Of a stretch of DNA of 64,000 nucleotides, positions 19,541 through 19,730 are shown in pieces. Numbering within the stretch: the first letter of the stretch is position 1; each line of letters begins with the position of its first letter. Source of the stretch: Rhodococcus sp. CH91 (GTDB taxonomy: Bacteria; Actinomycetota; Actinomycetes; Mycobacteriales; Mycobacteriaceae); NCBI RefSeq assembly GCF_022554085.1, contig NZ_JAKFYR010000005.1, positions 248,001-312,000 on the forward strand, written 5' to 3'. The translations under genes were made by a program, and so were the position numbers. The notes under the pieces are model-generated. The model was not told the origin of the DNA. It searched no databases and saw only the letters and a list, made by a program, of their open reading frames with translations.

Positions 19541-19730
19541 TCTCCGTACGCACCTACGAGGTCAGCTGTCGGGTTCGGGCTGAAGAGGGTCGCCCGGCCG
19601 TGTCGCTCCGTTGGGAGTTCTGCGGCTTCACCCCTAGGGCCGTCGCGGTTGCGTCGGCCCGGGCCTCCTGGACACCGTCCGGTTGTGTGCCGATCGGTTC
19701 CTGGGAGACCGGTGGGTCCCCCGTTTCCTG
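19541..19730 (-). ncRNA. ydaO/yuaA-type c-di-AMP riboswitch in the rpfA leader
   Basis: Read on the minus strand, the leader holds the conserved blocks of the ydaO-yuaA class in order: AACGGGGGACCCA near 19725, AGGGGTGAAGCCG in the middle, and CCCGAACCCGACAGCTGACC followed by TCGTAGGTGCGTACGGAGAGGA just upstream of rpfA. The last block is the hallmark of this riboswitch. It ends 17 bases before the ATG, so control may act on translation or on a terminator overlapping its 3' edge. By family knowledge c-di-AMP binding turns expression off, which links wall remodelling to c-di-AMP. The exact 5' boundary is approximate. Confidence 0.85.

Follow-up and report, generated by a model that had tools for sequence, protein, structure and literature searches.

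A c-di-AMP (ydaO-yuaA) riboswitch ahead of rpfA in Rhodococcus sp. CH91 with a putative pseudoknot to the Shine-Dalgarno sequence, and its pocket-less relatives in Nocardia

The rpfA gene and its upstream region

The window, a stretch of 64,000 nucleotides from Rhodococcus sp. CH91, harbors on its minus strand an open reading frame for 196 amino acids plus stop (18934-19524) with the start codon at 19524-19522. Pfam assigned to its product a Transglycosylas domain (PF06737, residues 38-114, E 1.7e-36) and an Rpf1_C domain (E 6.7e-6). By its Transglycosylas domain the gene product is a resuscitation-promoting factor, and the gene is called rpfA in the following. The rpfA frame remains open through the riboswitch described below up to an ATG at 19827 (18934-19827, minus strand), which is a pitfall for automated start calls. 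The region downstream of rpfA (16246-18525, minus strand) encodes a protein of 759 residues with Helicase_C_3 and WYL domains (Pfam). A Pfam search with two upstream stretches, one of them out of frame, gave no match.

Upstream of the gene, a pattern match located a presumed -10 element of the TANNNT type, GTTACCGT, at 19829-19836 (minus strand; the TANNNT hexamer itself at 19834-19829), from which transcription would start near 19822. A scan for a sigma-70 consensus promoter found none. All 18 genomes examined in the genus contain, in the same or a close form, the sequence GTTATCAATTGGTGAC at 19854-19869 (minus strand), which we take to be an MtrA-like site; a looser form was present in all 36 Nocardia loci whose upstream sequence was long enough. 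Further upstream, the palindrome TGTGATCTTTATCACA (19986-20001, minus strand) matched the CRP-type pattern TGTGAN6TCACA, which occurred in 15 of the 18 genomes of the genus and in 35 of the 36 Nocardia loci. It overlaps the stop codon in which the preceding frame (ORF 19997-20563) ends. Downstream of the CRP-type site and ahead of the presumed -10 element lies a perfect GC-rich hairpin, CGCGCCCCGCG...CGCGGGGCGCG (19869-19904, minus strand); it is not followed by a T run, and our terminator scan omits it. The CRP-type and MtrA-like sites suggest that transcription of rpfA is controlled separately from the leader. Transcription of rpfA in Streptomyces is also under CRP-type control. For M. tuberculosis, CRP control of rpfA appears as a title among the references of PMC3207917.

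Aptamer limits, helices and predicted pseudoknot

The minus strand 5' of rpfA carries a c-di-AMP riboswitch of the ydaO-yuaA class, as covariance-model searches confirmed. A search with the Rfam ydaO-yuaA covariance model, which the preliminary description had proposed as a check, gave a match to RF00379 at 19709-19535 (minus strand) that scored 39.6 bits (E 1e-5), where the gathering score is 38. This was the only match at gathering level in the whole window, it exceeded the cut-off by only 1.6 bits, and it stopped 10 bases 5' of the rpfA start codon. A relaxed Rfam search of 19500-20050 yielded no further credible family. We also built a covariance model, R1, from 22 rpf leaders (alignment A3), none of them from the genus of the window. 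R1 placed the aptamer at 19786-19530 (minus strand). The match scored 114.7 bits, at an E value of about 1.8e-33 by rough calibration, and the second-best match in the window reached 6.9 bits. Both models thus agreed with the preliminary description on a ydaO-yuaA riboswitch on the minus strand ahead of rpfA.

The Rfam score was barely above the threshold because the 5' half of the aptamer was read in the wrong register; the low score thus reflects a register fault rather than decay. In the window all three conserved boxes, CGGGGGA-CC, GGGGUGAA and CCCGAACCCGnCAGCU, stand in the correct order, and the first was missed by the Rfam register. In the relatives L021 and L132 the Rfam consensus gagCGgGGGAaCCa sits on the box GCGGGGGACCCA, and in L023 and L124 on ACGGGGGACCCA. 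The window has ACGGGGGACCCA at 19724-19713, yet there Rfam puts the consensus elsewhere. The box proper, CGGGGGACCCA at 19713-19723 (minus strand), on which the Rfam consensus lies in all four of these relatives, is presumably part of the ligand pocket. The blocks of the 3' half were found in place, as they had been read before: the box GGGGUGAA at 19634-19627 and the 3' core CCCGAACCCGACAGCUGACCUCG at 19579-19557 in both the Rfam and the R1 alignments, and the P6 hairpin in that of R1 (all minus strand).

The extent first proposed, 19541-19730, needed correction at its 5' end. Because R1 sets the limits at 19786-19530, an edge at 19730 cuts helix P2 (19777-19768 with 19734-19725), most of which falls outside, together with the whole 5' strand of P1 (19786-19781). 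The earlier 3' limit of 19541 leaves 16 bases up to the rpfA ATG, and the corrected aptamer overlaps the ribosome-binding site. We had regarded the conserved upstream hairpin as a candidate for a separate, novel RNA element. This was dropped because the CGGGGGACCC box matches both the Rfam consensus and the crystallized RNA; the hairpin is P2 of the same aptamer.

According to the R1 alignment, P1 is formed by CGCGCC (19781-19786) and GGUGCG (19549-19554), and P6 by 19595-19592 with 19580-19577 (hairpin 19577-19595). P2 is a hairpin of 10 pairs read from the sequence (19725-19777; all minus strand). We collected 171 rpf-type leaders; here as in the other leader counts, some genomes are included twice, under two loci. 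A stem scan of the 159 leaders with at least 300 bases upstream chose P2 in all but about ten, in which another stem ranked higher. By a redundancy cut, 33 of the 72 leaders that passed the filters formed alignment A1, and A3 comprises 22 of these 33, the seven leaders of the window's genus and L113, L120, L327 and L337 being left out. On A3, 92.4% of the cells of P1, 99.5% of those of the P2-equivalent stem and 97.7% of those of P6 were paired, with changes on both sides in two of six pairs of P1 and in eight of nine pairs of the P2-equivalent stem. For the three helices together, 96.9% of the cells were paired and 11 pairs had double changes. The 38 double-change cells compare with 12.4 +/- 3.2 in shuffles, and none of 500 shuffles reached the observed number of either paired or double-change cells. 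Pairing dropped to 35-48% when the registers of A3 were slid. On A1, aligned by MAFFT, only 63% of the P2 cells were paired and a slide by +1 improved two measures; this is an alignment fault, since MAFFT had misaligned both P2 and the tail. The folding energy of the full aptamer had a z-score of -2.6 against dinucleotide shuffles, 3 of 200 being equally good.

The crystallized ydaO RNA (PDB 4QLM/4QLN) shares with the window the conserved boxes, CGGGGGACCCA among them, P1, P6 and the complementarity of loop and tail; its loop CUCCUUCG is complementary to its tail CGAAGGAG, and PMC5393176, which quotes the sequence, mentions a pseudoknot. The same source gives an aptamer without the P2 hairpin, whereas the window has a P2 of 10 pairs with a large loop.

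In the window, the P6 loop strand CCUCUUC (19588-19582) and the stretch GGAGAGG (19545-19539, both minus strand) form seven complementary pairs, one of them G-U. The best duplex with the 16S anti-Shine-Dalgarno sequence near the rpfA start had -10.1 kcal/mol and fell on GGAGAGGAA, i.e., on the GGAGAGG stretch; this computation used an assumed 16S sequence. The 3' strand of the pseudoknot is therefore also the predicted Shine-Dalgarno sequence of rpfA, with a long spacing of 14 bases to the ATG. We compared loops and tails in a scripted count, made apart from A1 and A3, on 119 unique pairs from 130 aptamers. These 130 all show the exact core pattern, so that 11 riboswitch loci without it are not included, nor is L003, whose match had 15 bits. 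The sequences were assigned to rpf and nlpC classes by simple motifs, which left 17 of the 119 as "other", some of them evidently rpf by their start. A loop/tail helix of at least 5 pairs was possible in 32/32 rpf-class, 69/70 nlpC-class and 17/17 other sequences, and one of at least 6 pairs in 31 of the 32 unique rpf-class sequences. Loops of the rpf class scored on average 16.3 with tails of their own class and 11.8 with nlpC tails; for nlpC loops the means were 15.1 with their own and 12.3 with rpf tails. When tails were swapped within a class, the scores were almost the same (15.8 vs. 16.3 for rpf, 14.6 vs. 15.1 for nlpC), and 3.8% (rpf) and 8.6% (nlpC) of shuffled tails matched the class-median helix. 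Because swapped tails score almost as well and some shuffled tails do too, this test of the pseudoknot is clear between the classes and weak within them.

The two classes differ in the position of the Shine-Dalgarno sequence. In the rpf class it coincides with the pseudoknot strand, which was SD-like in 30 of 32 sequences; just 1 of the 32 had a further SD-like motif ahead of the start codon. The nlpC class mostly has a separate SD-like motif after the pseudoknot strand (before the start in 60 of 70), as do the Streptomyces-type nlpC-like leaders L033-L053, with a separate Shine-Dalgarno sequence 3' of that strand. The rpf leaders L120 and L337, the latter from Dietzia, have a loop CACUC, a tail GAGUG and a separate AAAAGGA behind it; here, pseudoknot strand and Shine-Dalgarno sequence are apart, unlike in the remaining rpf leaders. 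A simple scan of 19400-20100 found no terminator-like site, in line with the earlier remark that no obvious terminator follows the aptamer. In view of the Shine-Dalgarno counts and of the scan without a terminator, we take rpf-class leaders to be switches in which the pseudoknot strand is the Shine-Dalgarno sequence. The earlier suggestion of translational or overlapping control is supported computationally by this coincidence.

Distribution of riboswitch and DAC domain, and the Nocardia leaders

The genome of the window encodes one DAC domain (PF02457, E 2.7e-26) and three Rpf-domain genes. Two riboswitches scored over the cut-off, one before rpfA and one before a gene that we called NlpC/P60-type by eye from its DCSG motif. 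Within the genus, all 18 genomes had an rpf-linked riboswitch and 17 had a second copy; the genome without it, G010, is 75% complete. Among 121 genomes of the family, surveyed for the riboswitch with strict filters, 104 had both riboswitch and DAC domain, 15 had neither, two had only the riboswitch and none had only the DAC domain (Fisher p 2.5e-17, uncorrected for shared descent). The genomes G049 and G069, from genus g3 of the same family, have riboswitches of 68.7 and 72.5 bits (L096 in G069) and no DAC domain. A search of these two genomes with E values up to 10 returned just fragments, scoring 10.9-14.5 bits, although G069 consists of one contig. Across the class, 148 genomes were drawn, and 112 of them had a riboswitch match. 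Four of the riboswitch-negative genomes of this draw were checked for DAC and one, G149, was positive, which means that the tie between riboswitch and DAC domain is not absolute.

The reach of R1 was limited among more distant relatives. It found 23 of 37 named rpf loci, with 0 of 7 in Corynebacterium and 2 of 8 in Pseudonocardia (40.1 and a weak 20.9 bits among L348, L356, L365, L367, L374, L375, L378 and L388). Either R1 falls short of the whole phylum or the missed leaders do not contain the element; in Pseudonocardia it may be lost or decayed too. For 15 rpfA-type loci of family genomes without a riboswitch hit, a relaxed Rfam search returned no RF00379 and only implausible matches. R1 found six of these loci, all six from Nocardia, and had no match in the remaining nine, which come from other genera that lack DAC.

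We then turned to a single genus, which we treat as Nocardia, with 118 genomes. A DAC domain was present in 37, a riboswitch over the cut-off in 52 and one only below the cut-off in 4 more. A match to rpfA was found in 117 genomes, and the leaders of 96 of these were examined; the remaining 21 genomes lack a DAC match. The riboswitch was intact in 23 of the 96 leaders, and all 23 genomes had DAC. In the other 73 (L147-L152, L189-L218, L242-L278) it was decayed, which we defined by a missing 3' core pattern, so that absence of the core holds by definition. Independent of this definition, the CGGGG box, GGGGTGAAG and GGGGUGAAG were absent from all 73. All 73 kept a loop CCUCUC/U and a GAGAGG at most 16 bases from the ATG. 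DAC was present in 14 of the 73 genomes and absent from 59; pocket loss is therefore possible without loss of the cyclase.

None of the decayed leaders exceeded the Rfam cut-off. R1 detected every one of them, 67 at 42.8-81.9 bits and 6 at 52.2-69.1 bits, and we concluded that they descend from the riboswitch. Alignment A2 holds 28 decayed leaders out of 68 pocket-less candidates, after near-identical rows and a misassigned Pseudonocardia row (L388) had been dropped. In A2, all six loop columns and all six Shine-Dalgarno columns were invariant, and 100% of the P2 cells were paired. The decayed leader L242 had a folding z-score of -4.0, with CCUCUC pairing to GAGAGG in a nested stem. Translation by itself accounts for a conserved Shine-Dalgarno sequence, but not for a conserved loop several dozen bases further 5'. 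To judge by these sequences, the sensor pocket seems to be lost in many Nocardia species and the off-hairpin retained.

A second group comprises 15 of the 118 Nocardia genomes (L279-L293), which have no DAC match and a riboswitch over the cut-off that does not adjoin rpfA. The full 3' core pattern and GGGGUGAA were present in 14 of these 15 orphan riboswitches, which by sequence resemble the nlpC-type copy. As seen by eye, their loop and tail differ jointly from those in DAC-positive relatives. Recent loss of the cyclase, an overlooked cyclase or another ligand may each account for them.

Proposed control of rpfA and its alternatives

The leader of rpfA likely works as a c-di-AMP riboswitch with translation as its main target. 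The aptamer would fold with P1, P2 and P6 around the pocket, and the pseudoknot between the P6 loop CCUCUUC and GGAGAGG, the Shine-Dalgarno sequence of rpfA, would close it. At high c-di-AMP the bound aptamer would keep the pseudoknot and exclude the ribosome; at low c-di-AMP the ribosome-binding site would be freed and RpfA would be produced. We infer that the RNA of the window binds c-di-AMP and that binding stabilizes the pseudoknot. The direction of the switch, presumably OFF, is carried over from relatives, and rpfA is probably switched off by its concealed ribosome-binding site. A computed fold of the ligand-free leader, with pseudoknots not modelled, gave unpaired probabilities of 0.08, 0.12, 0.97, 0.88, 0.97, 0.28 and 0.29 over GGAGAGG. 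The Shine-Dalgarno sequence is thus only partly open in this predicted fold, which speaks against the model in its simplest form.

A parallel for such an output is the nlpC gene (cg2402) of C. glutamicum, where, as described in PMC9960051, the riboswitch lowers reporter protein and leaves the transcript unchanged. The authors propose a pseudoknot of CTCC with the GGAG of the ribosome-binding site. This translational OFF switch without a terminator can be likened to the window leader, although the gene is nlpC and not rpf; for rpf1 of C. glutamicum the same source gives the riboswitch link as a prediction. The unchanged nlpC transcript also weighs against a different reading of the same aptamer, in which c-di-AMP acts chiefly on transcription, through pausing, Rho or non-canonical termination within the leader, and the pairing of loop and Shine-Dalgarno sequence is just part of the fold. 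We regard this reading as rather unlikely. It stays under consideration because reports on M. smegmatis and Streptomyces show effects at the RNA level. The c-di-AMP riboswitch of Streptomyces rpfA (St-Onge et al. 2015, 2017; cited here after PMC10117811 and PMC9960051) is the same RNA class ahead of an rpf gene, and in S. coelicolor these sources describe premature transcription termination upon c-di-AMP binding without a canonical terminator. In M. smegmatis, where the class also precedes rpfA (MSMEG_5700), high c-di-AMP lowers rpfA RNA (log2 -3.0 in a pde mutant) and the activity of a reporter; this reporter is a transcriptional fusion, and PMC9338955 leaves the mechanism unsettled. In contrast to the termination described for Streptomyces (PMC10117811), the window has no terminator-like site within 19400-20100, and rpf-class leaders have the Shine-Dalgarno sequence on the pseudoknot strand itself. 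It differs likewise from ydaO of B. subtilis, which is of the transcription-terminating type, since the same scan saw no intrinsic terminator after the aptamer.

The score of just 1.6 bits past the Rfam cut-off and the loss of pocket motifs in 73 of 96 Nocardia leaders could also indicate that the element of the window is a worn or re-targeted copy that has lost c-di-AMP sensing, as seemingly in many Nocardia rpfA leaders. We hold this to be very improbable, as every conserved box is intact in the window, the element reaches 114.7 bits in the correct register, all 18 genomes of the genus have an rpf-linked copy above the cut-off and the genome encodes a DAC domain. Hardly any weight falls on a partly coding leader, with rpfA starting at the in-frame ATG at 19827 and no untranslated riboswitch. 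The frame is indeed open from there (an ORF of 297 amino acids), but relatives keep an MSGRHRK-type start, leader length varies while the helices are held by compensatory changes, and the presumed transcription start would lie downstream of 19827. The translational switch described above is the reading that we prefer.

For the proposal that rpfA is tied to c-di-AMP, the class of the RNA and the gene were borne out, while the link itself was already known from Streptomyces and Mycobacterium smegmatis and predicted for C. glutamicum rpf1. With the link published for Streptomyces and Mycobacterium, the element of the window is an ordinary member of its group. In Rhodococcus erythropolis, the ydaO/yuaA leader DVG80_05852 belongs to the same class and adjoins an rpf gene by locus tag (05851); PMC10986025 reports it just as annotated and counted by RNA-seq. 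Riboswitches on rpf genes of Actinobacteria and a pseudoknot output at the ribosome-binding site, proposed for nlpC, are in print already. Our searches of an open-licence library yielded no report of the register fault in the rpf subclass, of the identity of pseudoknot strand and Shine-Dalgarno sequence across it, or of pocket-less Nocardia leaders.

For Rhodococcus, the pairing proposed here ties a muralytic enzyme of dormancy exit to c-di-AMP through a concrete contact with the ribosome-binding site. As Rfam misreads the 5' half of the rpf subclass in the window, members can score low and be truncated, and the model misses the derived Nocardia leaders. The latter represent a natural series in which the riboswitch pocket was lost and the output arm kept; the second Nocardia set represents a sensor kept without a detectable cyclase. 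Both sets bear on the fate of riboswitches once the signal is lost. It is conceivable, at somewhat less than even chance in our judgment, that the anti-Shine-Dalgarno loop and the Shine-Dalgarno sequence together make up a regulatory unit able to persist after the c-di-AMP pocket is lost, the decayed Nocardia leaders being ligand-blind or re-targeted and still gating translation of rpfA. If this is true, the Nocardia gate would respond to a different cue (temperature, an RNA partner or a new ligand, for example), and the gate of the window could take a second input beyond c-di-AMP.
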